64,000 bases of DNA. It comes from Methanomassiliicoccaceae archaeon COG_1. Lineage in GTDB: Archaea > Thermoplasmatota > Thermoplasmata > Methanomassiliicoccales > Methanomethylophilaceae. Location of the stretch: contig JAQQTI010000004.1 of assembly GCA_028561875.1 (NCBI GenBank), forward strand, positions 1 to 64,000. The letters are read 5' to 3'. Below the pieces are notes generated by a model. It was not told the DNA's origin. It worked only from the letters and a program-made list of their open reading frames with translations, and made no database searches. Positions 9,288 through 64,000 of the stretch are shown here, piece after piece (position 1 is the first letter of the stretch; each line of letters starts with the position of its first letter). Both the position numbers and the translations under genes were made by a program.

Positions 9288-10543
9288 TCCGACTCCTCCC
9301 CCCCGCCGCAGGTGTTCAGAAGCCAGATGAGGGGGTCCTCCACCCTGAACGGGGCGATCCCGCGGGGTATGGCCTCCCCCGATGGGCTGCTCCCGAGCGC
9401 CGACACGGCGAAATATTCGTGCTTACTGAACCGGTCCACCGCCTGGATGAAGCCCTCGGACACCGTCCGGCGGAGGTACTCCTCCACCTCGGCGCCGACC
9501 TCGTCGAAGTTTCTCTCGTCGTAGGTCCCCCGCCGCCTCATCACGCGCACCGACGATTCCGGGCCGAGAAGCACCTCTTCCTCCTCGTCGCCCTCCGGGT
9601 CCCTCATCAGGACGTCGGCCTTGGTGAGGACGACGGCCAGAGGCACGTCTATGCGGTCGCCGGGCCTCAGGCCCTTCCTGCTGCGCAGGATGTCGGCGAT
9701 GTATCCGAGGCGGTCCCCGACGTCGGGGGACGCGTCGGGCTTGTCCTCGACGTTGATCCTCGCGTTCACGTAGGGGATCTGCAGGGGGTCGACCAGGTAT
9801 ATGATGCCGGAAGCCGCCGCGACGAACGAGCCGATGTTCAGGGCGTCCACCCTCTCGACGGAATCGAGGTCCTCGCCAGCGGTGTCGAAGAACGCCAGGG
9901 TGCAGGAGCGCGGGGGTTTGCCCTTGTCTAGCCTGAGGTAGTATATCAGGGGGTCGCGCGCGGCCCGCTCGTCGTCGTACGGCGTCGCCGAGGGCAGCGT
10001 CCTCCCCTCCTCGAACAGCCTCTTGTAGTACTCGTTGCGGTACTTGACCGTCGTGCGGTCGGAGGCCGGCGTGAGGGTAGAGCCGAACTCCGCGGAGAAC
10101 GGGTTTCTCAGCTGGTCGATTAGGACGGCGACGTAGTGGCTCTTCCCCGCCCCTCTGGGGCCCAGCACCGTGAAGATGGTGTCGCTCCCCTCCTCGGCGC
10201 TGTGCGGTATCGGGTTGTGGCATACCGGGCATAGGCGTATGAAGGCCGCGCGACGACACACGTCGCACAGGCCGTCCTCCGAACGCCTTATGATGTGGCT
10301 TTTCGTGGTGACGGCATCCCTGCCGGCGGGGTCCCTGCCGAGGAATACGGAGTTCTCCACATCTATCTCCTCCCCCTCGTGGTATAAGGAGCGGTACCTC
10401 TTCGCCTTTTCCTTCCCGCAGTGCTCCAGGAACCTCTTGGCGCACAGCGGGTTGCCGCAGGCGTAATGGGCGTCGACGAGGTCGATTCTGCTGAAACAGA
10501 ACGGGCACAGGTATTCCGCGCCCGGCCGCCTCCCTCCTCCCGA
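9284..10543 (-). CDS. Zinc-ribbon P-loop GTPase of the DO-GTPase (double-GTPase) type
   Basis: The frame is readable from 10543. It begins with a Cys-rich module (YLCPFCFSRIDL, ACGNPLC), then a second one (CDVCRRA, LCPVCHNP), then a P-loop GTPase core with GPRGAGKSHY (Walker A), FFDTAGED (Walker B/switch II) and LTKADV (base specificity). This order fits the double-GTPase 2 proteins described next to vWA, Hsp70 and other proteins in bacterial conflict systems; the family assignment is by pattern. No ATG, GTG or TTG precedes the first zinc motif in this frame: TGA is at 10544-10546 and the first possible standard start is a GTG at 10360, which would remove the first zinc module. A frame break with the previous gene is likely. 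The stop is TGA, overlapping the GrpE-like start. Confidence 0.7.
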   Translation of the reverse strand, partial: SGGGRRPGAEYLCPFCFSRIDLVDAHYACGNPLCAKRFLEHCGKEKAKRYRSLYHEGEEIDVENSVFLGRDPAGRDAVTTKSHIIRRSEDGLCDVCRRAAFIRLCPVCHNPIPHSAEEGSDTIFTVLGPRGAGKSHYVAVLIDQLRNPFSAEFGSTLTPASDRTTVKYRNEYYKRLFEEGRTLPSATPYDDERAARDPLIYYLRLDKGKPPRSCTLAFFDTAGEDLDSVERVDALNIGSFVAAASGIIYLVDPLQIPYVNARINVEDKPDASPDVGDRLGYIADILRSRKGLRPGDRIDVPLAVVLTKADVLMRDPEGDEEEEVLLGPESSVRVMRRRGTYDERNFDEVGAEVEEYLRRTVSEGFIQAVDRFSKHEYFAVSALGSSPSGEAIPRGIAPFRVEDPLIWLLNTCGGGEESE

Positions 10544-13500
10544 TCACCCGCCCTCCCTCCGTACAGGGTGCACCAGGCTGTAGAGTTGTATTCCTCCTGT
10601 CGGGGAAGAACAGCCTCAGGTTTGGGAGCTTCATGCCGGCCATGGCGGCGTCGAAGGAGACGGCCGCCCTCCCGTCGGAAAGCTGAATGGGGCCGTCGGA
10701 ATCCCAGAGGACCTCGCCATCGCGCATCCTGAGGGGCACCCCTCCGGCCATGCCTACGAGCACGCATCTCGGGACGGAGGACGCCCCCCGGCATTCCAAG
10801 GATATCGACACGTGCGCTTCTCCGGTCTGTGCGTCCGACTCTTCGGCATCCACGGTGTACGATACGTTGTCCGTCCGTCCCGAGTAGATGTCCAGGGTCC
10901 TGCCGGCCGATTTGAGCTTCCTGCCCTCCACGTCGTACACGGCGCACACGGTGACCCTTTTCCTCCTCTCCCTCCCCAGAGGCACCCGTATCCTGCTGTT
11001 CGCGCGGTAGCCCTCGCGGCTCACCGCGATCCTTTCCGTCCCGGCCCCGTCGGCTTCCGCGGACGTCGTCGTGGCGGTGACCAACGCATACTCGGCGTCC
11101 TCCGGCCAGGTCATGGTTATGTCGCAGGCGTCCCCGGCGGGCCTCTTCTCCAGGTCGCTGAACGGGTGCAGGTTCACGATCATGACGTCCTTGCCCTTCA
11201 CGGCGACCGGTCCGACGGGGATCATCGGGTACACGTACTCCACGACGCCCCCGGGCAGTTCGAAGCGGCAGCCATTCTCGTAGCTGTCCAGGGGCTCTAT
11301 CCTGGTCATCATCCTCTCCAACTCCTCGACTGGCACGGTGGGGCCCGGCATCTTGGCCCTGACGGGGGAGCGGTAGAGGACTACGCCCTCCCTCGTCCCC
11401 CACCTGGCGGTGTACGTCCCGTCCGCCCTGTTCCACCCTATCTCGATATCGTCCACCGGGTCCGGGCGCCGGACGGTCCTTCCGGCGAACACGTTCCCGA
11501 GCGACCTCTCCGTCCTGCCTTCGACGTCGTATTCCGCGACGAACAGGTAGCGGAACGTCACGCCGCCCTCGAGGCCGCGGTCGACCGCGGTCCCGCTGCC
11601 GTCGTGTATGACCTCTATGTTGTCCGCCTCCCCCTCGGCTCCCCTCCACCCTCCATATGCGGACGCGGCTGCACCCGGGGAGGCGAAGGTCAGCCTGAGC
11701 CCGTCCTCGACGGGCTCGATGCGGACGTCGGAAACCTCGCGCAGGACCATCACCGGGCCGCACCGCGCGCTCTCGCGCGAAAGGGCGCCCCAGCGCCTGG
11801 AGTGCACGCTGTAGTAGTAGTCCGCGCCGGGGTCCAGCGCGCGGTCCACGTACACGCCGCCCGGCACCTCAGCGATGGGTTCCGATCTCTCTATGTCGGG
11901 CAGGCCCCCCCTCCCGCGGTAAACGCAGAAGGTCGTGCCGCGCCTGTCCTCCGGCGTCGCGAACCTCAGGGTGACCGCACCGTCGTGCACCTGTACCGTA
12001 GCGTCCGAGGGCCCGTCGGGGGGGTAATCCCTCAGCCCGGACACGACGTCCGGATGGTCCGGGCACAGCTCGGCGGCCCGCAGGTAGGCCTGCAGAGCCC
12101 CCTCGCCGCCGAGGGAGGCCGCCGTCTCGGCGAGCTTCCCCGCTTCTTCGCATTTGCCGCGCGCCTCGGCGTACATCAGCGACATCTGTTCGTCGCCGAG
12201 CAGGTTCGGCACGGTCTTGCTCCCCTCTTCCAGGAAGGCCTTGAGGGCGTAGAGGCGGTTCGCCTTGTACTTCTCCGAGGCCCTTCCGCGTATGCTCTCG
12301 ACGTCCTCGGCGAGTCCGTCGACCGCCTGCCTGATCCCCGGGAGGTCTTGGTAGGACGGGTACCTGCGGACGAGCTCCGAGAGCCCCTCCGAGGCCTGTT
12401 TCAGGTCGCCCTCGGCGACCGCTGCCCGGATCCCCTCGTCCAGCGATTTGGCGTCCCTGAGCCCGTCGGAGAGGCCGAAACCGCATCCGACGCAGGTCCG
12501 GCCGACCACGCTCTGGAAGGTGCCGCACTGCGGGCATCTGACGGTTATTTCGCCGCCGCACACCGGGCAGAACCTGCCCGATTTGTACGCCATTCCGCCG
12601 CACGATGGGCAGAGGGCCAGGCCGCTGTCCTTCTCCGAGAAGTTCGCGACGTACTTCTTCCGGCAGCAGTGGGCCTCGAGTATGGTCAGGCACATGCCGC
12701 CGTCGACGCGGTTCTTGTTGACGCAGTCGGCGAGGAGGCCGTCGAGGTACTCGCGCGTGAGGGGAAGGCTGTAGTCGCCGTCGACCGTGTCGAGGGCCGG
12801 ACCCATGGCATCCATGCATTCGCCGTACGCCGTGAGCAGGCCCAGCCGGTCATCGGGGGTGAGCACGAGCTTAAGGCTCCTGACGGCCTGTATGTACGCG
12901 TCCTGGTTGGGGATCTTCCCCGCTTTGACGGAATTCAGCCTGGTTTCCACGGCATCGAAGGCGATGCGGATCCGGTCGGGGTCGAACGGCCCGTCGAGGC
13001 GGTCTATGGATATCCTCAGCTCGGGCATCTGCGCGAGGGTGCTGAGGAGCTCGGCGGGCGTGCTCAGCCCGACGTCCGAGATCCTCTGATACGCCATGTC
13101 CACCTCGGGGGGCACGGGCTCGGGGATGTCCGCCGGCGCGATCCCGGAGGCCCTCAGGAGGTCGGCGCCGGTCACGTCCCCCCACTTCATCCTCTTCGCG
13201 ATCGTGTCCTCCTCGCCCGGGAAGAGGTAGATCCCCCCGTCGTGGAGGGTGACCGCGTTCTTCCTCAGCTTGGACGCCCTCGCCTTGAGGAGCTTGCGGC
13301 CCTCCTCGAATTCGTTGGCGCGCAGGACGGGGCTTTCCATGGTCGTGCGCATGTCCTGCACCATGTCCCCGTACGCGGAGAACTGGAATCTCCTCTTGAG
13401 GGCCTCCTGCGGGTCCTGCGCGCCCTTCTTCCACGCTTCCTCCTTCTTCTTTATCTTGGCCGCGATGTCCGCGGGCTTGTACCCGTCCTCGCTGAACGGG

Positions 13501-13544
13501 TTGAGGCCGATCAGGAAGCAATAGTTCTCTCTGCCCTGTGTCAT
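10482..13544 (-). CDS. Hsp70-associated protein with zinc ribbons, helical repeats and FN3-like domains
   Basis: About 1,000 residues. The ATG at 13544 lies 2 bases after the Hsp70-vWA stop. Order: an N-terminal module (YCFLIGLNPFSEDGYKP, then a charged KIKKKEEAWKK helix); a long helical part; tandem zinc ribbons near residues 308-350 (CPSCGG, CPVCGG, CPQCGT, CVGCGF); TPR-like helices; and several beta-sandwich, FN3-like segments to the end. I infer a scaffold or client-recognition subunit for the two Hsp70s. The end is uncertain. This frame stays open to a CGA at 10482, overlapping the GTPase frame. If one C is extra in the CCCC run at 10602-10605, the protein instead ends LYSLVHPVRREGG at the TGA 10544-10546. 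Confidence 0.65.
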
Positions 13545-25627: not shown

Positions 25628-26146
25628 ATGGTAAGAAAGCCGGCATCAATGTACAGGGAGATCAAGGGGCAGGCCTACACTCGCCGCGAGTATATGGGCG
25701 GCGTCCCCGCGGTCCGCATCAGCCAGTTCGACATGGGCAACCTCCAGAGGGACACCGACTTCCCGGTCGTCCTCACCCTCAGGGTGAAGAACAGGGTGCA
25801 GGTCAGGCACACCGCCATCGAGGCCGGCCGTATCGCCGCGAACCGGGTCCTCAGCCCCCTCGGCGAGGCCTACCATTTCAAGGTGAGGGCGTACCCCCAC
25901 GTCGTCCTCAGGGAGAACAAGCTCGCCACCGGCGCCGGCGCGGACCGTGTGTCGAGCGGCATGCGCCGCGCCTTCGGCAAGACCGTCGGCACCGCAGCCA
26001 GGCTCGAGTGCAACCAGGCCATCTACACCGTCTACGTCACCTCCGAGAAGGCCGTCCAGGCCAAGGACGCCCTCTGGAGGGCGTCCATGAAGCTCCCGTC
26101 CCCCTGCTACATCGACGTGGAGAGGGGACTGGAACTCATCCACTGA
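25628..26146 (+). CDS. rpl10e: 50S ribosomal protein L10e (uL16)
   Basis: 172 residues, the normal length. Conserved uL16 features: MVRKPASMYREIKGQAYTRR start, the GRIAANRVLSPLG loop, FKVRAYPHVVLREN, RVSSGMRRAFGKTVGTAARL and QAIYTVYV. It is a large-subunit protein near the tRNA-binding sites. The ATG at 25628 is preferred over a GTG 9 bases upstream. Its TGA overlaps the Dph2 start (TGATG), coupling ribosome and EF-2 modification genes. Confidence 0.95.
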   Translation: MVRKPASMYREIKGQAYTRREYMGGVPAVRISQFDMGNLQRDTDFPVVLTLRVKNRVQVRHTAIEAGRIAANRVLSPLGEAYHFKVRAYPHVVLRENKLATGAGADRVSSGMRRAFGKTVGTAARLECNQAIYTVYVTSEKAVQAKDALWRASMKLPSPCYIDVERGLELIH

Positions 26147-27129
26147 TGCGGTTCGACCTGCAGATGGACAGGGTCGAGGACTGGATCCGCGACAGGGGGA
26201 TCTCCTCCGTGGCGCTCCAGTTCCCCGAGGGCCTGAAGGCCCGCGCCACCGAGGTCTCCGGCCGCATCTGGTCGGACCTCGGCGTGCGGGCCGTAATACT
26301 CGGCTGCCCGTGCTACGGCGCGTGCGACCTCTTCACGGACTACAGGAAGTACGCCGAGGGGCTGGTCCATTTCGGCCATTCCCCCATACCCGGCCTCGCG
26401 GACGACGACGGCGTGCTGTTCGTGGAGGCGAGGGCGGAGGTCGCCATCGAGGGGCCGCTCAGGGCCGTGCTCGGCTCCCTGCCGGACAGGGTGGGGCTGC
26501 TCGCCTCCGTGCAGTACGTCGGCCTCCTGGAGGATGCGAAGCGGATCATCGAGGGGTCCGGGCGCACGGCCGCCATCGGGAAGGGGGACGGGAGGATATT
26601 CTACCCGGGGCAGGTGCTCGGCTGCAACTGCTCCGCGGCGCTGTCCGTCTCCGGCGAGGTCGATTGCTTCCTGTTCATCGGCGAGGGGGACTTCCACCCG
26701 CTAGCCGCCGCCTTCGGCGTGGATAGGAGGCTGATCGTGCTCGACCCGATGACCGGGGAAGCGCGCAGCGTCGACGACCTCCGCGACCGCATACTGAGGA
26801 AGAGGTTCGCGCAGATGGAGGCCGCCCGCGGCGCGAGGTCGTTCCTCGTCGTGCTCTGTGGGAAGGTCGGGCAGTATCGTCCCCGCGAAGCGGACCGCGC
26901 CGAGGCGATGCTGCGTGAGGCGGGCAGGGAGGCCCACCGCATGGTGGCCGACGAGGTCTCCCCGCAGGCGCTCCTGCCGTACAGGGTCGACGCGTTCGTC
27001 AGCACCGCCTGCCCCCGCGTGGCGATGGACGACCAGGCGAGGTACCCTCGCCCGATGCTCACCGTCCCCGAGCTGGAGATCGTCCTGGGGAGGAGGGCGT
27101 GGGAGGATTACGCGTTCGACTCCATCCGA
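26146..27129 (+). CDS. dph2: Diphthamide synthase, Dph2-type radical enzyme, CGA-terminated
   Basis: 327 residues. It catalyses the first step of diphthamide formation, transfer of the 3-amino-3-carboxypropyl group of SAM to the EF-2 histidine, using an unusual 4Fe-4S cluster. The three cluster cysteines are in the expected places: GCPCYGACDLF near residue 50, LGCNCSA in the second domain and STACPRVAMDD in the third. The protein ends at EDYAFDSI followed by CGA (27127-27129). The standard-code frame would instead end at a TAG (27160), the codon a pyrrolysine user should avoid as a stop. Confidence 0.88.
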
Positions 27130-28419: not shown

Positions 28420-29096
28420 AGCGCTGCGTGGTGCTCCTATCAGGCGGACTGGACTCCACGACGGCCCTCGCCCAGGCCATCGCCGACGGCTACGCTCCGA
28501 CGGCGTTGAGCTTCCGCTACGGGCAGAGGCACGCCAGGGAGCTCGAGTCGGCGGGGAGGGTGTGCGAGCACTACGGCGTGGCGCACGCCGTCGTCGACCT
28601 GGACCTGTCTTCTTTCCGCTCCGCGCTCACCCGCAGGGAGATCGACGTGCCGATGGACCGCGAGGGGGGGCCTGACGAGGGGATCCCCGTCACCTACGTC
28701 CCGGCGAGGAACATAGTGTTCCTGAGCATCGCCGCCGGCTTGGCGGAATCGATAGGCGCCGACCGCGTCTACATAGGCGCGAACGCGGTGGACTACTCGG
28801 GCTACCCGGACGACCGTCCCGACTTCCTCGAGGCGTACGAGAGGATGCTGGAGAAGGGCACGAAGGCCGGCGTGGAGGGGCACCCGGTAAGGATCGCAGC
28901 GCCGCTGCTGGACCTGTCCAAGGCGGACATCGTCCGCCTCGGCATGAAGCTGAGGGCCCCGCTGGAGCTGACCTGGTCGTGCTACAACGGCGGGGACAGG
29001 GCGTGCGGCCGCTGCGACTCCTGCCGCATCAGGCTGCGGGGGTTCCGCGAGGCCGGCTTCGAGGACCCCGCCCGGTATGAGGAAGGCGTCAGATGA
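28416..29096 (+). CDS. queC: 7-cyano-7-deazaguanine synthase QueC
   Basis: 226 residues. An ATP-dependent enzyme converting 7-carboxy-7-deazaguanine to preQ0. The PP-loop is [17 protein letters not shown], and the zinc site is [15 protein letters not shown] near the C-terminus. The GTG at 28416 overlaps the queD stop (GTGA). An ATG at 28398 in the same frame is less likely. Its TGA overlaps the queE start. Confidence 0.94.
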
Positions 29097-29722
29097 GGGT
29101 CGTCGAGCACTTCTACTCGCTGCAGGGCGAGGGGACGAGGATCGGCGTCCCCACCTATTTCATCCGGGTCGCCGGCTGCTCCCTCAGGTGCGCATGGTGC
29201 GATACGAAGTTCTCCCTCGACCCGGGGGGCGGGGAGGAGATGTCGCTCGACCGCATCATGCGGCTCATCGGCGGTTGCGGGGACGTGTGCCTCACGGGGG
29301 GCGAGCCCCTCGAGCAGGCGGACTCGATCGACCTCCTCCGGATGCTCGCCGAGGCGGGGAAGACCGTGGTCCTCGAGACGAACGGGGCGGCGGACGTCTC
29401 CGCCGTCCCGGACGATCCGCACATCATAATCAGCATGGACATCAAGTGCCCCTCGTCGGGGATGCAGGACCGCATGCTGCTCTCCAACCTGGACCGCCTA
29501 GGGGGGAAGGACCAGCTGAAGTTCGTCATCGCCGACAGGAGGGACCTCGATTACGCCGAGGCCTTCCTCGCCGAGCATGCGGTCGGGGCGAATGCGATAT
29601 TCAGCCCGGTGGGCGGGACCGGCCTGCGGGAGATCGCCGACGAGGTCGTCGCGAGGAGGCTCGGCGTCAGGGTGCTCCCGCAACTCCACAAACTCATCTG
29701 GGGAGACAGGAAGGGGGTCCGA
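29093..29722 (+). CDS. queE: 7-carboxy-7-deazaguanine synthase QueE, CGA-terminated
   Basis: 209 residues. A radical SAM enzyme with the CxxxCxxC motif ([13 protein letters not shown]), GGEPLEQ and VLETNGA. It converts carboxytetrahydropterin to CDG. The family ends a few residues after the [15 protein letters not shown] segment; here the next codon is CGA (29720-29722), not TGA. Continuing would add about 33 residues of Pro/Arg shadow sequence. This is one of the clearest CGA terminators because the C-terminus is so conserved. Confidence 0.92.
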
Positions 29723-31260: not shown

Positions 31261-31689
31261 ATGCCCATAGGCGACCCGCACGGCGGGAATTTTCGGTACA
31301 CGACGGAGGGCCTCCCCGAATCGGTATTCATGGCGAGCGTGCCCTCCCGCGAGCCACGCTCCCTGATGCACTTCTACCGCGACGTCCTTATGATGGACGT
31401 CGTCCTCGAATCGGAGGACGAGGTGTTCATGCGTCGCGGGTCGGCGCGGCTGCGCATCTACCGCTCCGGCTCCCCGGGGATCGACACGGGGATATTCATC
31501 GGCGTGGAGGATCCCTACGACTTCCACCGCCGGATGATCGACGAGGGGGTCCGCTTCGCGCTGGACCCAAAGCGTCTCCCCCTGGGCGTGGCCACCTCGT
31601 TCCTGGACCCGGAGGGGAACACCCTCTACGCGATCGAGACGGGGGCGGAGCCGAAAGACCTTAACGATGCGCAGGGATGCGGCAGGCGA
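31261..31689 (+). CDS. VOC-superfamily (glyoxalase-like) protein
   Basis: 142 residues with the beta-alpha-beta-beta-beta repeat pattern of the VOC fold: SVPSREPRSLMHFYRDVLMMDVV, a short loop with RLRIYRSG, YDFHRRMIDEGVRF and SFLDPEGNTLYAIE. The substrate is unknown. It ends in CGA (31687-31689) immediately followed by TGA, and the A of CGA is the first base of the next gene's ATG. It has a TAGATATCC element near 31230 as a possible promoter. Confidence 0.7.
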
Positions 31690-33149: not shown

Positions 33150-33641
33150 ATGGCAGACATCAGGATTCGCAAGAGGAAGAGGCTCAGGGAAAAGGAGGCG
33201 AAAGCGCTCGCCGGCGAGCTCGAGGCGTTGCTCGGGGCGAAGGTCTTCGACGAATCCCTCCCCGTCGACAGGGCGGAGAGCACGGACTTCGACCTCATCT
33301 TCGTGGGCAACGACATCCTCGGCCTGATAAAAGACGGCAAGCCCTTCCTCACCGTGAGGGGGGTGCTGAGGTACCGCCCGGAGAGGAGGTTCGTGACGGT
33401 GGACATGGGCGCCGTGCCGTTCATCACCAACGGCGCCGACTGCATGGGCCCCGGCATAGTGGAGGCGGACGACGGGATCTCCGCGGGCGACCTGGTGTGG
33501 ATCCGTGACGTGAAGAACATGGCCTGTCTCGCCGTGGGGACCTCCCTCCGCGACTCCGCGGGGCTGCGCAGCAAGCGGCCGGGCAAGGCGATAATCTCGC
33601 TGAACAACGTCGGGGACAAGCTGTGGAAGGCGGGCGTGTGA
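33150..33641 (+). CDS. PUA-domain RNA-binding protein (MCT-1/Tma20-like)
   Basis: 163 residues. A basic N-terminus (MADIRIRKRKRLREKEAK), a small alpha/beta pre-PUA part and a C-terminal PUA domain (VDMGAVPFITNGADCMGPGIV, SAGDLVWIRD, KRPGKAIISLNNVGDKLW). Archaeal homologues of MCT-1/Tma20 act in translation initiation or recycling. The ATG at 33150 lies about 30 bases after TTATGTATG. Its TGA overlaps the GTG of the HD gene (GTGA). Confidence 0.8.
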   Translation: MADIRIRKRKRLREKEAKALAGELEALLGAKVFDESLPVDRAESTDFDLIFVGNDILGLIKDGKPFLTVRGVLRYRPERRFVTVDMGAVPFITNGADCMGPGIVEADDGISAGDLVWIRDVKNMACLAVGTSLRDSAGLRSKRPGKAIISLNNVGDKLWKAGV

Positions 33642-34954
33642 GCGTCAAGACGGTGCACGACCCGGTCCACGGGAGCATCAGGGTGGACGGGCCATTCCTG
33701 GGGATCCTCGACCGGCACGAGATGCAGAGGCTGCGTGGCACGCGGCAGCTCGGGGCGGGGTACTTCGTCTTCCCCGGCGCGAACCACACGAGGTTCGAGC
33801 ACTGCCTCGGCACATACCGTCTGGCGGGCAGAATGGCGGAGGCCATCGGGCTCTCCAAGGAGGACTCCGACGCGGTGAGGGCGGCCGCCCTCATGCACGA
33901 CATCTGCCACGCGCCGTACTCTCATACCCTGGAGGCGGTCATGGAGGACCGCACGGGCTGCGGCCACATGGAGCTTGCCCGCGACCTGATCATGGGGAGG
34001 GTCCCCTCGCACCGTCCCGAAGACGATGACCTCTTCGGGGGCGAGGAGCCGATATCCTCCCTGCTTGAGGGTGCGGGCATCGACCCCGTCGCGGTCTGCG
34101 AGCTGATCTCCTCCCCGGGCACCACCGAGAGGGAGGAGGCCCTCGACGCCTTCGTCGGCGCGCCGGCGGACCACTTCCCCTCGAAAGACTACATCCATCA
34201 GATCATACACGGCCCGGTGGACGCCGACCAGATGGACTACCTCGTTCGCGACGCTCACTACACCGGGGTGGCCATGGGCAACATCGATATCGATAGGCTG
34301 GTTTCCACCATGGAGGTCTACAACGACCGCATCTGCATACGCCGGGGCGGGGCGCCCGCCGCCGAGGGGCTGATGGTCTCCCGTTCGCTGATGTACACCT
34401 CGGTCTACTTCCACCAGACCGTGAGGGTCCTGGGCAGGATGATCGTCAAGGCCGCCGACGAGTCGGGGCTGGACCTCTCGGACGTCTACCTCTGGGACGA
34501 TGCCGACCTGGAGAAGGCGATCATCGCCCGCGGCGGGAGGCCGTCGGAACTCATCCGTCGGGTGCGCGGCCGGAGGTTCTACCGCCGCGCGGTGTCGGTG
34601 ACCTCCGGCGACACCGACGAGGACCTCGCGAGGATGCTCTCGCATTACTCCCCCTACAATCGGAGGACCGAGCTCGAGGCGGCCGTCGCTGACAAGGCCG
34701 GGCTGGAGGCCTGGCAGGTCGCCATCGATATGCCGGCGCCGTCCACGCTGCTCTCCAAGGTGCAGATCGGGAAGACCGACGTGTCGATCCTGGACGGGGA
34801 CGGCAGGGTGAGACCGCTGACCCGGTCCTCGCCCCTCGCCAAGGCGCTGCAGTCCCGCGACGCCTTCGGATGGTCCGTCGTCGTCGCCTGCCCGGAGGGC
34901 GCGGAGGGCGCCGTCCGCAAGGCGGCCTCGAAGGTCCTCGGCATCGGCCTTTGA
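33638..34954 (+). CDS. HD-superfamily phosphohydrolase
   Basis: 438 residues. Metal-binding motif of the HD domain: TRFEHCLGTYRLAGRM, then AALMHDICHAPYSHTLE, then a distal aspartate in DADQMDYLVRDAHYTGV. This is the dGTPase/COG1078 type; nucleotide triphosphate hydrolysis is likely but the substrate is not shown. The GTG at 33638 overlaps the PUA gene. Its 3' end overlaps the end of the convergent rtcB gene by 11 bases when the CGA stop is used, against about 400 bases under the standard code. Confidence 0.82.
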   Translation: MSVKTVHDPVHGSIRVDGPFLGILDRHEMQRLRGTRQLGAGYFVFPGANHTRFEHCLGTYRLAGRMAEAIGLSKEDSDAVRAAALMHDICHAPYSHTLEAVMEDRTGCGHMELARDLIMGRVPSHRPEDDDLFGGEEPISSLLEGAGIDPVAVCELISSPGTTEREEALDAFVGAPADHFPSKDYIHQIIHGPVDADQMDYLVRDAHYTGVAMGNIDIDRLVSTMEVYNDRICIRRGGAPAAEGLMVSRSLMYTSVYFHQTVRVLGRMIVKAADESGLDLSDVYLWDDADLEKAIIARGGRPSELIRRVRGRRFYRRAVSVTSGDTDEDLARMLSHYSPYNRRTELEAAVADKAGLEAWQVAIDMPAPSTLLSKVQIGKTDVSILDGDGRVRPLTRSSPLAKALQSRDAFGWSVVVACPEGAEGAVRKAASKVLGIGL

Positions 34955-36395
34955 CTACCCCGACCGGCTTGAGCCTCGCCACCTTCGCCGAGAGCCCCGC
35001 GTTGCAGACGACCTCGATGACCTCGCTCACGTCCTTGTAGGCCTGCGGGGCCTCCTCGAGGAGTCCCCTGGTGGAGCCGCTGCGCAGGCTGATCCCGCGT
35101 CCGGCAAGGTCCCTCCTGAGCTCCGCCGCGTCGACCGACTCCACCGCGGCCTTGCGGGACATCCGCCTGCCCGCGCCGTGGCAGGTGGAGCCGAACGTCT
35201 GCTCCATACTGCCCTTCCTTCCCGCGAGGACGTACGTGCCCGTTGCCATGTCGCCGGGGATGAGGACGGGCTGCCCGTGGTCGCGGTACCTCATGGTGAC
35301 CTCGCTCCGGCCCGGGGCGAAGGCGCGGGTGGCGCCCTTCCTGTGCACAAGGACGTCGCGGCCGTGGCCGTCCACGTCGTGCCTCTCCATCTTCGCGATG
35401 TTGTGCGCCACGTCGTAGACGACGTCCATGCCCATGTCCTCGGCGGACCCGCCGAGCACCTCCTCGAAGGACCTCCTCGCCCAGTAGGTGATCATCTGCC
35501 GGTTGGCCCAGGCGTAGTTGGCCCCGCAGCACATGGCGCGGTAGTAGCCCTCGCCGAGCCTCGACGTGAGCGGCGCGCAGGCGAGCTGCCGGTCCGGCAG
35601 GTCGACGGGGTTCGTCCTGAGGAAGACCTCCATCTCCCGCAGGTATTCGGTGGCGATCTGATGCCCGCAGCCGCGGGAGCCGCAGTGTACGGTGATGGTG
35701 ACCGCGCCCGGCTCCAGGCCGTAGGCTTTGGCGGTGCGCTCGTCGAACATTTCGTCAACCACGTCGAGCTCCAGGAAGTGGTTTCCGGAGCCGAGGGACC
35801 CCAGCTCCCCTCTGCTGCGCTTGCGCGGCCTCTCCCCCACCCCCTCCTGGTCGGCGTCGGCCATGCGGCCGCCCTCCTCGGTGACCTCGAGGTCGCGCTC
35901 CCAGCCGTAGCCGTTCTCGATGCACCACTCGGAACCGAGTTCCAGCACGTCCGAGAGCTGTCTGTCGTCGAGCCTGACGAGCCCCTTGGACCCGAGACCC
36001 GAGGGGACGTTCCTGCAGAGGCTGTCCATGAGCGCCCCCATCCTATCCCCGATATCGCCGAGGGTGAGGTCGGTCCTGATTAGGCGGACGCCGCAGTTGA
36101 TGTCGAAGCCTATCCCGCCGGGCGAGATCGAGCCCTCGTAGGCGTCGACGGCGGCCACGCCGCCGATGGGGAAGCCGTATCCCCAATGTATGTCTGGCAT
36201 CGCCATGGAGTTGCCGACGATCCCCGGCAGGGAGGCGACGTTCGCCGCCTGCTGCGGGGAGTTGTCGCCGAGGACGGTCCCGATAAGCGCATCGCTGGAG
36301 TAGATGACGGCGTCGGTCCTCATCCACGGAAACTCGTCCCGCGGGATCATCCACCGGTTGCCGTCTATCTTCTCGAGCCTGCCGTTCCACGCCAT
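34944..36395 (-). CDS. rtcB: RNA 3'-phosphate/cyclic phosphate ligase RtcB, CGA-terminated
   Basis: 483 residues, the family length. It ligates tRNA exon halves with GTP and Mn. Conserved motifs: GFDINCGVRLIRT (Mn-binding Cys), GSLGSGNHFLELD, TVHCGSRGCGHQI, the guanylylated-histidine region GSTCHGAGRRMSR, and the C-terminal VARLKPVGVVKG that always closes the family. Here GGC (Gly) is followed by CGA (34944-34946) and CGA again two codons on. Under the standard code it would gain 131 residues antisense to the HD gene. The ATG at 36395 is preceded by GAGGTG. Downstream of tRNA-His. Confidence 0.96.
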
Positions 36396-41182: not shown

Positions 41183-41893
41183 ATGTCTACTGCACTGGAA
41201 TCGAACGCGGACTACGCCGAGAAGATGAAGCGCATCATGCGCCTCAGGTACGAGCCCGTTGCCGTGAAGCTCGTCCGCGAGGGCGAGAGTTTCCCGCCCG
41301 GGCTCTCCCGCCCGGAGAAGCAGATGAGCCACTGCCAGGCAGTGTTCGCGGCGAAGAACGGCAGCTGCCTGGAGATGCATGCCGAGGACGAGCAGTGCCA
41401 TGTCGGCGCCTCCTGCCTCGGCATGATGCCCGCCCCCGGGAAGGTCGTCAACGGCGAGTTCCACGCGAGCATCGGCATGCACGATTCCCCCGCCGCCGCG
41501 GCGGCGATGATCGCCGCCCGCATGACCGTCCCCGGGAGGGTCGTCGGCGAGGCGGTCTGCCCCCTCGCGAAGGCGGATTTCGTCCCCGACGTCGTCGACT
41601 TCGTCGACATCCCCGAGAGGATATACTGGTTGGTCCCGCTAAGCACCGCCGCGGCGGGCGGTCGCGCCTCGTTCTCCACCGCGCCGTTCCAATGCGCCTG
41701 CGAGGACACCGTCGCCCTGCCGATCATCACCGGGGAGGTCAACATATCCCTCGGCTGCTTCGGCTGCCGCAGGAAGACCGACATGAAGGCGGACGAGATG
41801 GCCGCGGGGGTGCCGTACGCCAAGATCCCGGGCTTCGTCAAGCGCCTCGAGAGGTACGAGGGTGGCGTCATGGCGAAGGCCAAGCGCGACCGA
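41183..41893 (+). CDS. DUF169 family protein, CGA-terminated
   Basis: 236 residues. DUF169 pattern: MRLRYEPVAVKLVREGE, QMSHCQAVFAAKNGSCLEMH, CHVGASCLGM, PIITGEVNISLGCFGCRRKT. Common in methanogens and anaerobic bacteria; the cysteine set suggests metal or cofactor binding, function unknown. A CCTTTAACGG element about 30 bases upstream suggests a leaderless start. The frame ends at AKAKRD followed by CGA (41891-41893). Under the standard code it would continue 27 residues up to a TAA inside an AT-rich stretch before the mcr promoter. Confidence 0.82.
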
Positions 41894-46397: not shown

Positions 46398-46682
46398 ATG
46401 GAAAAAGGGGACGTGGCCAAGTACCTCCCGACGTCGACGGTCGGAAGGGTCGAGGACGTGATGGAACGGGACGGCAGGGTCTGGGTCAAACTGGACCGCA
46501 CCGGCCTGTACTACGCGGCCGAGACGCTGACCCCCGCCGACCCGAAGGAGTACAGGGCCACGTCCTTCAAGGAGCGCTCCGCCAAGAAGAAGGACTACAG
46601 GTCGGGGGAGACGGTCGAGGACCTCAACGAGATGGAGAGGAACGTCGACATCGACGACCTGATGCCCAGCGGAGGAGGGCGA
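46398..46682 (+). CDS. DUF2098 protein following mcrA, CGA-terminated
   Basis: 94 residues. The DUF2098 pattern GRVEDVMERDGRVWVKLD, TGLYYAAETL is specific to methanogens and suggests a small SH3-like barrel. It sits 5 bases after mcrA in the same operon. The family length fits a stop at CGA (46680-46682), after MPSGGG. Without it the frame runs through a 12-base GC hairpin and a T-run terminator to 46,943, which is implausible. Confidence 0.8.
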
Positions 46683-47510: not shown

Positions 47511-48725
47511 TCGAACCCCCCTCAGCCTCCCTCCCCTTCTCGCGGGGTCCATCGCTGAGACCTCCAGGCCGGGGACGGTCATGCGCACTACGGGGACGCC
47601 CGTCTCGGGGCGGGTGATGTCGCTGCATATCACCATGTCGAAGCCCGCGTCCATGAGGTGTCTCAGAACGACCTCGATGTCGTCTAGGACGTAGTCCGTG
47701 GCCTCGTCCCCCATGCTCTCCAGGGACCTCGAGGAGCGGGAGCCCCTGAACCACAGCGGGTTGGCCCTCTTCACGCCCTCGTAGCCCATGCCGCGGGCGG
47801 CCCTCTGCAGCTGTGCGTTGATCTTCGCGCCGTCCTTATGGGTCGCCCTGCTCTGGGCGACCTCGGTGAGCGCGCGCACCGCGGCGATCTCCGGGTCGAG
47901 GTGGGTGCCCACGCCGATGGTGAGCATCTCGGGGTCCTTCGTCCGCACGTCGTCGGCGGCGGCCCCGATGGTGGTGATGCCGACGTCCGAAGTGATGTCC
48001 TTGAGGTGCACTTCGATGCCGGCGTCCTCGAACTTCCGGAGCAGCCTCCCGGGCGCCGAACTCCCGTCCTCTATGACGATGTCCGAGTTGGCGCGTTCGT
48101 TGTGCTCCGCGATCGACCAGGCATCCCTCTCGACGTCCTCGAAGAGGGCGTGGAGGATGGCCTCCTCGACGGTGTTGCCGGCGGCGATGCCGTTGGTGTG
48201 CGAACGGAAGAGCGGCATGTCCGTGGTGCTCTGGTAGGGGTGGTACACGCAGGCCGCCGGCAGGAACACCGGGCATCCGCGGAACATCTCGTACCCCACC
48301 GTCCACGCGATCCGCTGCCCCGCCCATGCGCCCGACGTGTCCGGCGGGAGGATGAGGTCCTCGGGGCGGACGGCGAGGCCCGCCGAGCGCGCGTCCTCGT
48401 ACGTCCCGTAGACGAGCTCGTCCCCCTCCCGCGGCTCGGCCGCGAAGCGCTCCATCGCCTCCATTATTCCCGATGCCTCGGCCTGCTCGGGGGTGGCGCC
48501 CTTGCCGTTGTAGAAATGCCCCCTCTCACCCGGGTAGCGGCCGTCGGCCGGGCGGTCCACGGAGAACACGGGTATCCCGACGCGGTCGAGCCCGGTGATG
48601 TCCCTCGGCGGCCGCATGCCCGCCGCGGGCATGAGGGGGCGGACGCGTTCGAGGGTCTCGGAGGGGAGCACGGTGCGGATGCCCGCCTCCCTCCGGCGTT
48701 TCGGACAGCGTTGGAGCTGCAGCAT
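47511..48725 (-). CDS. ycaO: YcaO-domain protein, CGA-terminated
   Basis: 404 residues. ATP-dependent YcaO enzymes activate backbone amides; in methanogens they install the thioglycine of McrA. Seen here: SGIMEAMERFAAEP, TNGIAAGNTVEEAILHALFE, VERDAWS, the EVAQSR ATP-site region and VPVVRMTVPGLEV near the end. No TfuA partner is visible next door. The gene ends at RRGGRLRGV followed by CGA (47511-47513). The standard-code frame would run over 80 codons further into the antisense of the TM2 gene. Its TATA box (CGTTAAATCGC, 48751-48760) lies within the standard-code 3' extension of the gene upstream. Confidence 0.83.
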
Positions 48726-48812: not shown

Positions 48813-49376
48813 TCGGGCCGTCCTCCCGGAATCGTTGAAGGCGATGAGGACGGACGCTAGCTTGGGGTCGTCCTGCAGGCCGCGGCGCTTCCTCATGAGG
48901 AGGTCGCAGGTGGGCGCGGGCGAGCACGAGATGACGTCGTAGCACCCGTTGCCCGGGTTGAGCTCGGGGAAGCTCACCGGGGGCATGACGAACTGCTCCC
49001 CGCCGTTCCCCTTCACCGACGGGAACATCACGAAAGCGTCCGACAGCCACACCACGTCGTCCCTGTTGAGGTACTCCTGGGCGGTGAACGGGAACACCTC
49101 CAGGCCGAGTACCTTGCCGTCCTTGGAGAGGAGCTCCACGGTGGGCTCGGGCGGGGGCCTGAAGCGGGGGTCCTTGATGATGGCTATCACGTGGTCGCGC
49201 TCCAGGGCCTGGTTGAACCCCCGGTTGTCCACGGTTATGGTCGCGCCGGCGGCGCGGACCTTCGCCTCCTCCTCGCGCATTATCTGGAGGGTCTCGTCGT
49301 CGAGGTAGAACGCGTCCACCACCCCCCTGAGGCCGCGGACGGTCTTCAATGGCAGCTCGGGGCCGTTTTCTGTCAT
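48813..49376 (-). CDS. Conserved hypothetical protein upstream of ycaO, CGA-terminated
   Basis: 187 residues, not recognised. Soluble alpha/beta-looking protein with VVDAFYLDDETLQIMREEE, TITVDNRGFNQALERDHV, LGLEVFPFTAQEYLN and a Cys-containing ISCSPAPTCDLLMRK segment. Position between a methanogen-specific regulator and ycaO suggests a link to MCR maturation, but this is inference. It ends at NDSGRTA followed by CGA (48813-48815). A TATA element (GTTTAATG near 49403-49411) lies about 30 bases before the ATG. Confidence 0.6.
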
Positions 49377-50530: not shown

Positions 50531-52177
50531 ATGTCCAAGTCGGTCGAGCTCATCAATATCGAACACGTCACGAAGAAGTTCGACGGCCGCGAGGTCCTCA
50601 GGGACTTCAGCGCCACCGTCGCCTCCGGCGAGATTGTGGGCCTGATAGGCAAAAGTGGCGCCGGCAAGAGCGTCCTCCTGCACATGCTCAGGGGGAGCGC
50701 GGAGTACAAGCCGGATTCCGGCCGCGTGCTGTACCACTTCAACCGCTGCGAGTCCTGCGGCGACGTCTCCCTGCCATTCGAGGGCACCGCCTGTCCCAAG
50801 TGCGGAGGGGACACCGAGACCGAGACGGTGGATTTCTGGTCCCTGAAGGAGCACGACCCGCTCCGCGAGCAGGCGAAGGACAGCATAGCCATCATGCTGC
50901 AGAGGACGTTCGCCCTCTTCGGCGACAAGACCGTCATCGAGAACATCATGGAGGCCATCCCCGACGGCGTCCAGAACAAGGTGCAGAAGGCCATCGAGCT
51001 CCTCGAGTTCGTCAACATGTCCCACCGCACCATGCACATAGCCAGGGACCTGTCCGGGGGGGAGAAGCAGAGGATCGTCATGGCCCGGCAGCTCGCCAAG
51101 GAGCCCATATTCTTCCTCGCCGACGAGCCCACCGGGACTCTCGACCCGTACACCGCCGAAATCGTCCACAACAAACTCGTCCAGTACGTGAAGGAGAACG
51201 ACATATGCATGATCTTCGCCTCCCACTGGCCGGAGGCCATCGACAGGATGGCCGACCGCGCCTTCTGGCTCGATGCCGGGGCGGTCGTCATGGAGGGCAA
51301 GCCGAGCGAGGTCACCTCCAAGTTCATGGAGGGCTACCACTTCGAGAAGAAGGAGGTCGCCACCATCGGCGGGCCGATCATCAGGCTCACCGCCGCCGAG
51401 AAGCACTACTTCTCCGTGGTCAGGGGGGTCGTGAAAGCCGTCGACGGAGTCACGTTCGACGTAGGCGAGAGGGAGGTCTTCGGCATCATCGGCGTATCCG
51501 GCGCCGGCAAGACCACCACCTCGCGCATGATCGCCGGCCAGACCCCCGCCACCGGCGGGACGGTCGAGGTGCGCATCGGGGACGAGTGGGTCGACATGTC
51601 GAAGGAGGGCGTCGCCGGCAAGGGCCGCGCCACCCCGTACATCGGCATACTGCACCAGGAGTACACCCTGTACCCCTTCGACACGGTCCTGCAGAACCTC
51701 AGCACCTGCATCGGCATCGATATGCCAGCGGAGCTGGCCAGGATGAAGGCCATCCAGGTCCTAATCAGCGTCGGGTTCGAGAAGAAGGACGTCTCGAGGG
51801 TCCTCGATTCCTACCCCGACACCCTCTCCGTGGGGGAGTGCCAGAGGATCGCCTTCGCGCAGGTGCTCATCAAGGAGCCGAGGATCATCATCCTCGACGA
51901 GCCCACCGGCACCATGGACCCCATCACCAAGGCAATCATAGCCAAGTCCGTCCTGCGCGCCAGGGAGACCCTCGGCGAGACGTTCGTCGTCGTGTCCCAC
52001 GACATGGACTTCGTGCAGAACTGCTGCGACCGCGCCGTGTTCATGAAGGGGGGGAAGGTCGTCACCGTCGGGAAGCCCGACGACATCGTCAGGAGGTTCG
52101 ACGTCGACGAGGAGGCGGACGGCGATAGGCCGCCCGAGGGGCCCGGGCACGACGAGATGTCCCACATGAGCCTGCGA
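50531..52177 (+). CDS. atwA: MCR activation component A2 (tandem ABC ATPase), CGA-terminated
   Basis: 548 residues, the family size. It drives the ATP-dependent reductive activation of MCR. Two ABC domains: first GKSGAGKS, a zinc-like insert CESCGDVS...[17 protein letters not shown] and [11 protein letters not shown]; second [20 protein letters not shown] and [11 protein letters not shown]. The natural end falls at MSHMSL, followed by CGA (52175-52177), 10 bases before the mcrC start. Read by the standard code the frame would continue 171 codons across mcrC in the wrong frame. A GTG 18 bases upstream is a weaker start. Confidence 0.95.
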
Positions 52178-56398: not shown

Positions 56399-56983
56399 AT
56401 GGCGGAGACGGTAGTGCAGGGCACCGAAGAGAGCGGCAACGGGCTATATGCCGCGCTGTACGAGGAGATAATGTCCGACGTCGGCAAGATGGCCGCCGTC
56501 GAGCGCTCCTACCTCAGGCTCAAGCCAGAGGTCCCGCTTTTCATCATGTCGGTGAGGATGAGGGCGAAGCCGGCGGCGAAGACCATCGGCGCGGTCGCCT
56601 CCACCCGCGCGGAGAGGGGGAGCGTGTACGTGAGCATCTCCGACGAGCTCTACGCCCCCGGCGTACTCAGGGCGCTGTGGGCGAGATACGGCAGGGACGA
56701 CGTGGTGCAGACCGACCGGTCCGACATCACCGTCCGCGGCGCGGACGCCTCCGAGGAGGTGGACGGCCTGCCGGTGGAGTCGCAGGAACAGCCGGTGCAG
56801 GAGATCATCGGCGCCCTGTGGAGGGTGATGCCCGAGGGCATACGCAACCGCAGGGTGATCTCCGGCGGCGGCGTGATAACCGCGGTCGCCACCGAGGAGG
56901 TCACGAAGCCGGAGTACATCGAAGAGGCGATGGAGGTGCACGGGAAGATGGTCAGGGGGGAGCTCCGACGTTCCAGGTGCTGA
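56399..56983 (+). CDS. mmp17: Methanogenesis marker protein 17
   Basis: 194 residues. The Mmp17 pattern is MRAKPAAKTIGAVASTR, VYVSISDELYAPGVLRALW and GIRNRRVISGGGVITAVATEE near the end. A subunit of the MCR activation complex in Methanothermobacter. Ten bases separate it from mmp15; its TGA overlaps the mmp7 start (TGATG). Confidence 0.88.
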   Translation: MAETVVQGTEESGNGLYAALYEEIMSDVGKMAAVERSYLRLKPEVPLFIMSVRMRAKPAAKTIGAVASTRAERGSVYVSISDELYAPGVLRALWARYGRDDVVQTDRSDITVRGADASEEVDGLPVESQEQPVQEIIGALWRVMPEGIRNRRVISGGGVITAVATEEVTKPEYIEEAMEVHGKMVRGELRRSRC

Positions 56984-60051: not shown

Positions 60052-60732
60052 TCGGATCATCGGGATGAGGTCGGCCACGCTGCGGACGGTCTCCACGCCC
60101 TCCCCCACCATGCCGACCCAGTCGGAGCGGGTGTTCCGGCCGGTCTCCACGCCGATGAACCTCGCACCGGAGTTGGCGCAGGTGAGGTAGTCCACCAGGC
60201 CGTCTCCCAGGTAGAGGATTTCAGAGCACTCGACGCCGAGCCTCTCCGCGAGGTGCTCCATGGCGACGGCGGACGGCTTCGCCTGTTCCTCGGGGTAGTC
60301 GTCCCTCGCGACGACGGCGTCGAACTCGTCGTACACCCCGGCGGACCCGAGGACGGTCCTCGCGTAGTCGCGCCCGCCGCGGGTGAGGATGCCGACCTTG
60401 TAGCCCCGCGACTTCAGGAGGCCGAGCGCCTCGACGGCTCCCGGGAACGGTTCGGCAAGGGCGGCGTTCTCCATTTCGATCTCCGTCGCCCTCGCGCCGA
60501 TCCTCTCGTTGAGGCCGGGTATCCTGTCGCCCATGCAATGCTCGGCGAGCCACCTCCTGCCGTCGTCGAGGGTGAACTTGTACCCTCCCTGGGGCAGGTC
60601 GCGTACCGGTACGCCGAGGCTCTCGAACTCGTCGAGGACGACCCGCTCGAGCTTGGGATAGTCCACGAGGGTGTGCATGAATGTGCCGTCCATGTCGAAG
60701 CCGACGGCCCTTATGCCGTTTCCGAGAGCCAT
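60052..60732 (-). CDS. HAD-superfamily phosphatase, CGA-terminated
   Basis: 226 residues. HAD motifs: GFDMDGTFMHT (nucleophile Asp), VGILTRGGRDY (Thr), KPSAVAMEH (Lys) and LYLGDGLVDYLTC (Asp). The cap is short and helical, phosphoglycolate phosphatase-like; substrate unknown. ATG at 60732 (MALGNGIRAVG). The frame ends at VADLIPMI followed by CGA (60052-60054); otherwise it would run antisense through most of glcD. Upstream on the same strand is RNase P RNA. Confidence 0.85.
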
Positions 60733-61930: not shown

Positions 61931-62980
61931 ATGGGGATCGGGGACATCATCGACCAAGTGCGCAGCGGCGCCGAGGCGTCCCGGGAGGACGTCATCGCCA
62001 TGCTCTCCGCGGAGGGCAGGGACAGGGAGCTACTTTTCGAGAACGCAAGGGACGTCAGGGACGGGAAGTTCGGCGACAAGGTGTTCGCCTACGGCTTCGT
62101 CTACTTCTCAACGTACTGCCACAACAACTGCACGTTCTGCTACTTCCGCAGGACGAACGGCATCGACCGCTACCGGAAGACGCCGGAGGAGATCGTCGAC
62201 CTCGCCCTCGACCTGAAGGAGGAGGGCATCGACCTCGTCGACCTGACCATGGGGGAGGACGATCGGATGTACGGTGACGGCTTCTCCGGGCTCGTCGATA
62301 TCGTCTCCCGCGTCCACGGCCTGGGGGTCTCCGTGATGGTGTCGCCGGGGGCGGTGGGCGAGGAGGCCATGCCGCGCCTGAAGGAGGCCGGCGCGGACTT
62401 CTTCGCCGTCTACCAGGAGACTTACAACAGGGAGCTGTACTCCCGTCTCCGCCCGGAGCAGGACTTCGACTTCCGGTGCAACCAGAGGGCGTGGGCGAGG
62501 GCGGCCGGCATGCTCACCGAGGACGGCATGATGGTCGGGCTCGGCGAGACCGTGGCCGACCGCGCCGACGCCATCCTCGCGATGTGCGCCGGGCCCTGCG
62601 AGCAGATCCGCTGCATGACGTTCGTCCCGCAGACGGGGACGCCGCTGCAGAACCTCGAGCCGACGGGCTCCGGCATGGAGCTGAAGGCGATCGCCGCCAT
62701 GAGGCTCCTCCGCCCGGACAGGTTCATCCCCGCGACCCTCGACGTCGAGGGCGTCGGGGGCATGAAGGCCCGCCTCGACGCGGGCGCGAGCACCATAACC
62801 TCGATCGTCGTGCCGAGGAGGCACCTCGCCGGCGTGGCGCAGCCCGAGAAGGACATCGAGAGCGGTGCAAGGGGGGTCGACCACGTGTTCGAGCTGGTCG
62901 ACGGGATGGGCAAGAAGGTCGCCTCGCAGAGGGACTTCTCCGCCATGCTCCGCCGGATGAAGGATGCCCTTCCGCGTCGA
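61931..62980 (+). CDS. pylB: Methylornithine synthase PylB, CGA-terminated
   Basis: 349 residues, the PylB length. Radical SAM lysine mutase making 3-methylornithine, the first step of pyrrolysine synthesis. The cluster motif is CHNNCTFCYF (Cys63, 67, 70), then LVDLTMGEDDRMY, FFAVYQETYNRELYSRLRPE, MTFVPQTGTPLQ, RFIPATLDVEGVGGMKARL and GASTITSIVVP, all matching PylB more closely than HydE or BioB. The end is DALPR followed by two CGA codons (62978-62983), then a TATA-like TTAAATAC. pylS, pylC, pylD and pylT are not in the window. Confidence 0.9.
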
Positions 62981-63439: not shown

Positions 63440-63789
63440 GGGCCAACCCCTGGCTGCTCATCGCGGTGGGCGGTCTCTTCGAGGCCGTTTGGGCCACCAC
63501 GATGAACGAGTCCGCCGGCTTCACCGATCCGTTCTGGACGGCCGTGACCTACTCCATCAACCTGCTCAGCGTCTGGTTCCTCTACCGGGGGCTGAAGACG
63601 GGCATGCCGATGGGCGGGGCCTACGCCGTGTGGGCGGGGTGCGGGACGGTGGTCTCGACGGCGTTCGGGTACCTCTTCTACGGCCAGGCGCTGGCGCCGC
63701 TGGAGTTCCTATTCCTGGCGGTGCTCGTCGCCGGCATACTGCTGCTGCAGTACGCCGAGGGCCCGGACGGCAGGGGCAATCGGCACCGA
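63436..63789 (+). CDS. SMR-family transporter subunit 2, CGA-terminated
   Basis: 117 residues and four TM helices, with the glutamate in VGGLFEAVWATTMNESAGF and GGAYAVWAGCGTVVSTAFGYL. It should pair with the preceding subunit. After LLLQYAEGPDGRGNRH the next codon is CGA (63787-63789). Under the standard code the frame has no stop to the end of the window and runs antisense through the methyltransferase gene. Confidence 0.85.
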
Positions 63790-64000
63790 TCCTCCCAGAA
63801 GCTCCTGCCCGCCCTCCCGAGGGCGGCCACGTTCGCGTCCGGGGAAGAGATGGGGGTCTCGCACCCCGGCGCGAGTATGTACCCCCCGTCCGTCCCGGCG
63901 GCGGCGATGAGGCGGTACGCCTCGCGGGTGATCCCCTCGGGCGTGCCCATCATGATGTGCTTCACGGGGTCGATGTTCCCCATGATCGCGAGGTCCCTCC
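63780..64000 (-). CDS. Methylcobamide:CoM methyltransferase-type (UroD family) protein, 3' part, CGA-terminated
   Basis: Only the C-terminal 73 residues are in the window; the gene continues past 64000. IMGNIDPVKHIMMGTPEGI, GGYILAPGCETPISSPDANVAAL match the end of MtaA/MtbA/CmuA-type and other UroD-fold methyltransferases, including the zinc-binding cysteine in PGC. It ends SFWEDRC followed by CGA (plus-strand TCG at 63780-63782), so the two convergent genes here both end in CGA and overlap by 10 bases. Confidence 0.8.

Follow-up and report, generated by a model that had tools for sequence, protein, structure and literature searches.

Two convergent genes overlap within the window, the whole stretch of 64,000 nucleotides that was analysed. 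The rtcB gene (34944–36395, minus strand) encodes a protein of 483 aa, and the HD phosphohydrolase gene that runs towards it (33638–34954, plus strand; PF01966 and PF19276) ends at TGA. Read on the minus strand, the end of rtcB is AAG CCG GTC GGG GTA GTC AAA GGC CGA TGC CGA, which encodes KPVGVVKG and then presents CGA at 34946–34944. As a preliminary description of this DNA had proposed, CGA lies exactly behind the GVVKG of RtcB, and taking it as the end leaves the two genes overlapping by 11 bases (34944–34954). None of the 483 codons before this end is an in-frame CGA. Under the standard code the frame would continue through CGA and 130 more codons to the next TAA, TAG or TGA; this read-through frame (34554–34943, minus strand), also recognized in the preliminary description, is the antisense of the HD gene, contains 12 further CGA, has a coding score of −88 and is not coding.

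The C-terminus of RtcB, which had been taken to be fixed in the family, is so in the data: profile PF01139 matches over its full length (1–426 of 426, E 2.4e-168) and ends on the last residue (483 of 483), directly before CGA, and all relatives with a readable RtcB end stop right after (V/I/M)KG. The reciprocal best match in G011, a genome of the same genus, aligns from end to end (75.8%; residues 1–483 of 483 in both proteins), with TGA as its stop at the identical position. Nearly all readable relatives carry TGA, TAA or TAG there, and SIG8, from another genus, carries CGA. TGA in independent sequence, which had been named as evidence against a CGA stop, occurs at this site in other species only; most species of the same genus have it, and those species use hardly any CGA at all.

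Other genes in the window also end at CGA. A large gene of 1020 aa (10482–13544, minus strand) has a coding score of 273, and its continuation beyond CGA, 352 codons with 32 CGA, scores −194. The others were compared with their reciprocal best matches in G011, and the fractions that follow give the aligned extent in the genome of the window and then in G011. On the plus strand lie a diphthamide synthesis protein gene (26146–27129; PF01866; 1–327/327 and 1–326/326, with TGA as the G011 stop), two radical SAM genes (29093–29722; PF04055; 1–209/209 in both; and 61931–62980; PF04055; 349/349 and 350/355), a DUF169 gene (41183–41893; PF02596; 1–236/236 in both) and an ABC ATPase gene (50531–52177; PF00005; 532/548 and 533/546), whose read-through would amount to 170 codons with 11 more CGA. 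Further CGA-ended genes on this strand are found at 31330–31689 (116/119 and 116/120), 46398–46682 (94/94 and 96/96) and 56399–56968 (187/189 and 188/193). On the minus strand are a YcaO gene (47511–48671; PF02624; 386/386 and 402/408), a gene somewhat shorter than its ortholog (48813–49376; 182/187 and 190/212), an HAD hydrolase gene (60052–60732; PF00702; 226/226 and 230/230) and a gene at 63780–64000 whose start lies beyond the window, at contig position 64835 (348/351 and 346/348).

CGA at gene ends and in gene bodies

The genome of the window (G000; a gut-type methanogen of the Methanomethylophilaceae type, order Methanomassiliicoccales; 1,508,513 bases in 6 contigs, 65% GC) was searched with a codon-likelihood gene finder, written for the analysis, in which CGA served as a fourth stop. 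It returned 1299 genes covering 81% of the genome, of which 775 end in TGA, 395 in CGA, 98 in TAA and 31 in TAG; an earlier pass had returned 1301 genes, 396 of them CGA-ended. Open segments that run for 500 codons or more without CGA number 204, though CGA makes up 2.8% of all triplets. Out-of-frame CGA is abundant within the genes (26,903 and 8,630 occurrences), so the avoidance concerns the decoded frame. Most continuations past CGA ends score as non-coding; 26 score above 5, and in 23 of these an independent start lies farther downstream in frame. The commonest spacing behind CGA-ended genes is −1 (CGATG; 29 of 223), which is expected where a stop overlaps the next start. The completeness of G000 is given as 86% despite its 6 contigs, an estimate that may be too low if genes called under the standard code come out fused or extended.

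Gene ends were also located by a C-terminus test that is independent of the stops chosen by the gene finder: stops and CGA were masked in all six reading frames of G000, to which the proteins of G011 were aligned. G011 is 99% complete and uses ordinary stops, and 1.2 of its 1.46 Mb were compared. Across 707 C-termini defined by orthologs, CGA occurs 0 times at codons −30 to −8, once at −7 and 116 times at position 0, with about 18 thereafter; against the all-frame background, the chance of at least 116 of 707 at one position is about 10^-52. The first stop-like codon at these ends is TGA in 407, CGA in 220 (31%), TAA in 52 and TAG in 7, and 21 have none. Reciprocal best pairs end no more than 5 aa from the end of the ortholog in 214 of 252 cases when CGA-ended and in 403 of 451 when TGA-ended. 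A stop at CGA is the better fit in 233 of the 252 CGA-ended pairs, and read-through in 19. The orthologs end at TGA in 231 of the 252, as a T-to-C change would give. CGA with conserved flanks on both sides was encountered once in 265,382 aligned residues, the aRF1 gene described below being a further exception.

Two termini, whose identities were assigned from sequence by eye, illustrate the change. A protein resembling archaeal S-adenosylmethionine synthetase ends in GK(I/V)RTF followed by CGA in G000 and by TGA in every other match (61 genomes, order-wide), and a TruD-like protein shares its last 26 residues between G000 and G011, after which the former has CGA and the latter TGA.

A second species bears the same marks. 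SIG8 (SUTA01000004.1) is a separately deposited public MAG from another genus, g4, of the same family. Its RtcB end reads GGC CGA, and five of its eight checkable gene ends, RtcB included, have CGA at offset 0 (four of the seven others). In the stretches compared, none of its 197 Arg codons is CGA. G099 and G104, which also belong to g4, have RtcB-type ends of the form GV(V/I)KG-CGA as well. Within SIG8, several CGA gene ends lie close together in L278, L285 and L215; in L285 two of them, on opposite strands, are near the end of aRF1.

Most members of the family contain 0–2 CGA per genome among aligned codons; the exceptions are G014 with four and L206 with three, both of low GC, and G013 with five on a mosaic contig. 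In other families of the order CGA makes up roughly 4–16% of Arg codons. G011 has four sense CGA among 14,910 aligned Arg codons, and CGA was scored at six of its 715 ends, in no case at offset 0. Disuse of CGA is thus general in the family, and G000 and SIG8 are the genomes found to employ it heavily as a stop.

At the level of sequence, CGA marks the ends of genes and is excluded from their bodies in G000, and it does the same in the independently sequenced SIG8. The recurrence of this pattern at hundreds of gene ends makes the CGA end of RtcB more than chance. Faulty sequencing or assembly of a single site is ruled out, as hundreds of sites and the second assembly agree. The idea that CGA is a stop, first read from the RtcB site, is supported by orthologs across the genome, by the second species and by the near-absence of CGA in coding frames.

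The release factor aRF1 and tRNA-Arg(UCG)

One aRF1 and one Pelota were found per genome searched (one match in G001), and no second release factor beside them was found in these genomes. The aRF1 gene of G000 lies outside the window (C1:331780–333015) and contains a single in-frame CGA, codon 25, at 331852. This codon specifies a conserved Arg adjoining GRGTELIS, equivalent by alignment to Arg28 of human eRF1. All 14 genomes of the genus (g1) have CGA as codon 25, as do 10 of 17 genomes of g5, 5 of 6 of g21 and isolated members of further genera; none of 45 genomes from the rest of the order, beyond this family, has it. In g4, codon 78 is CGA in 25 of 31 genomes, always as NCT-CGA-CT; in G099, G104, G106, G107 and G112 a search for this site with any Arg codon gave no match. 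The aRF1 of SIG8 has AGG and CGC in place of CGA at codons 25 and 78, and the gene is itself CGA-ended. G011 has the aRF1 CGA but few CGA stops, and SIG8 is the opposite, so the aRF1 CGA is not tied to heavy use of CGA as a stop. A mutual exclusion in g4 between CGA in aRF1 and a CGA-ended RtcB looked striking but was dropped, SIG8 being the one genome with a CGA-ended RtcB there whose aRF1 could be read. A low-GC family member, G014, has an aRF1 end of RYKV-CGA-TAG (L297, near 2301) and carries CGA inside its RtcB.

No decisive recoding change stands out in aRF1: the NIKS and YxCxxxF motifs are canonical and intact, and the remaining differences are candidates only, namely a Met or Leu typical of the family at the position of human R68, where other families have Arg or Gln, together with Cys94 and Arg99. 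A CGA that is conserved and nearly unique, in the gene of the stop-reading factor, has the appearance expected of an autoregulatory sensor. In Escherichia coli, prfB is autoregulated through an in-frame UGA at codon 26 and a +1 frameshift. The aRF1 gene would resemble it as a release-factor gene with an early in-frame codon read by that same factor; unlike in prfB, the codon is CGA, the reading frame is identical on either side of it, without a +1 frameshift, and read-through by tRNA-Arg(UCG) is predicted. Because the frame is unchanged across the CGA, aRF1 can share with prfB no more than its way of working and falls outside the frameshift class.

The gene for tRNA-Arg(UCG) is present in G000 (C1:172160–172235), which rules out its loss as the cause and leaves room for some decoding of CGA as Arg. 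Position 73 of this tRNA is U and its gene encodes no CCA, but it is still tRNA-like; the three other intronless Arg tRNAs (GCG, CCU and CCG) have G73 and encoded CCA. Full-length or near-full-length matches occur in 13 of the 14 g1 genomes, G000 included, the others being 78–89% identical. As CGG is also covered by tRNA-Arg(CCG), tRNA-Arg(UCG) may plausibly have survived because it decodes codon 25 of aRF1.

Decoding of CGA and its place among variant codes

Taken together, the sequence data make it very probable that CGA is a genuine translation stop in G000 beside TGA, TAA and TAG. The reader of this stop is probably aRF1, and that aRF1 is autoregulated through its own CGA is a proposal for which we see the balance as even.

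The strongest competing account, which we nevertheless regard as improbable, holds that CGA is unassigned or ambiguous, with ribosomes pausing there and peptides being freed because Pelota/ABCE1 rescue the ribosome or aRF1 acts weakly on CGA as a near-cognate codon, and with some read-through as Arg by tRNA-Arg(UCG). The retention of this tRNA with its deviant U73 would fit, as would the avoidance of CGA in almost every role by G011 and the slight excess of stop-like backup codons behind CGA ends (about 0.07 per codon, against about 0.05 behind TGA ends). The proportion of conserved genes that end at CGA, about 31% and often at the exact homologous position, is nonetheless more than rescue by itself is likely to cope with, and TGA-to-CGA changes have been tolerated at the genes resembling S-adenosylmethionine synthetase and TruD.

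A genuine stop at the level of decoding also accounts better for the data than does C-to-U editing of mRNA, which as in plant organelles would turn a terminal CGA into UGA and leave the code unchanged. The two codons are one C-to-U step apart, and most orthologs of CGA-ended genes end at TGA. In-frame CGA has been purged from gene bodies in any context, however, while out-of-frame CGA is abundant, and such context-blind removal points to decoding and not to the recognition of sites; the bases following CGA ends are varied as well. We know of no archaeal mRNA C-to-U editing of this kind, and consider this explanation very improbable. The standard code, in which CGA would be a rare Arg codon and the proteins would carry C-terminal extensions, is rejected as having next to no probability: although tRNA-Arg(UCG) exists and aRF1 can be made only by reading through CGA, the continuations are mostly non-coding or have their own starts, orthologs end at the CGA, and the codon is nearly absent from gene bodies where other families of the order use it regularly.

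If CGA is a stop read by aRF1, its capture may have proceeded in steps. An ancestor of the family would have stopped using CGA as an Arg codon, and aRF1, the single class-1 factor, would then have come to accept C beside U at the first codon position, and so CGA beside UGA. TGA-to-CGA transitions could subsequently have spread over gene ends in a few high-GC lineages. The CGA in the aRF1 mRNA, at codon 25 or, in the sister genus, at codon 78, would cause termination when aRF1 is plentiful and be read as Arg when it is scarce, and tRNA-Arg(UCG) would have been kept because this mRNA needs it. The full proposal is a first sense-to-stop capture in a cellular, non-organelle system: aRF1 would read CGA throughout the family, most members would merely avoid this codon, in some high-GC members it would terminate about a third of the genes, and aRF1 would control its own synthesis via one conserved CGA that a near-dedicated tRNA-Arg(UCG) decodes. 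In our judgement this could equally prove right or wrong.

To our knowledge, the variant codes of bacteria, archaea and nuclei are stop-to-sense changes or amino-acid swaps, and sense-to-stop changes come from mitochondria only. The mitochondrial sense-to-stop codes, NCBI tables 2 (AGA/AGG), 22 (TCA) and 23 (TTA), resemble the present case in that a sense codon has disappeared from gene bodies and come to stand at gene ends. They belong to organelles that have very few genes and use release factors of bacterial type, whereas G000 is a cellular archaeon that has about 1300 genes and an aRF1-type factor and still contains the gene for the cognate tRNA. The Methanomassiliicoccales are known for a pyrrolysine TAG code, which shares the order with the CGA case but is a stop-to-sense change, in contrast to the sense-to-stop change described here; tRNA-Pyl is present in G000, and G011 has in-frame TAG sites. 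About a dozen of these TAG lie in conserved proteins of G011 (for example at 613226 and 846521), aligned to ordinary residues, which is consistent with pyrrolysine reading across many proteins.

A literature search, covering open-access literature only, found no report of a CGA stop. Reassignment of CGA and CGG to amino acids (Trp or Gln) has been described in low-GC bacteria of the Absconditabacteria and Firmicutes by Shulgina and Eddy 2021 (PMC8629427), whose screen found no amino-acid change of sense codons among 2309 archaeal species and, by its own statement, could not detect new stop codons. Those cases and the present one alike involve the capture of rare CGN Arg codons, but at low GC and towards an amino acid in the bacteria, and at 65% GC and towards a stop in G000. 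As the published screen did not model stops, similar cases may be hidden elsewhere.

Under the standard code, about a third of G000 genes will be annotated as extended or fused. The family displays the stages side by side, with CGA rare, avoided or heavily used as a stop, so that codon capture becomes directly testable within it. The prfB-like sensor codon of aRF1, if the proposal is true, would reveal how the set of codons read by a release factor can grow.
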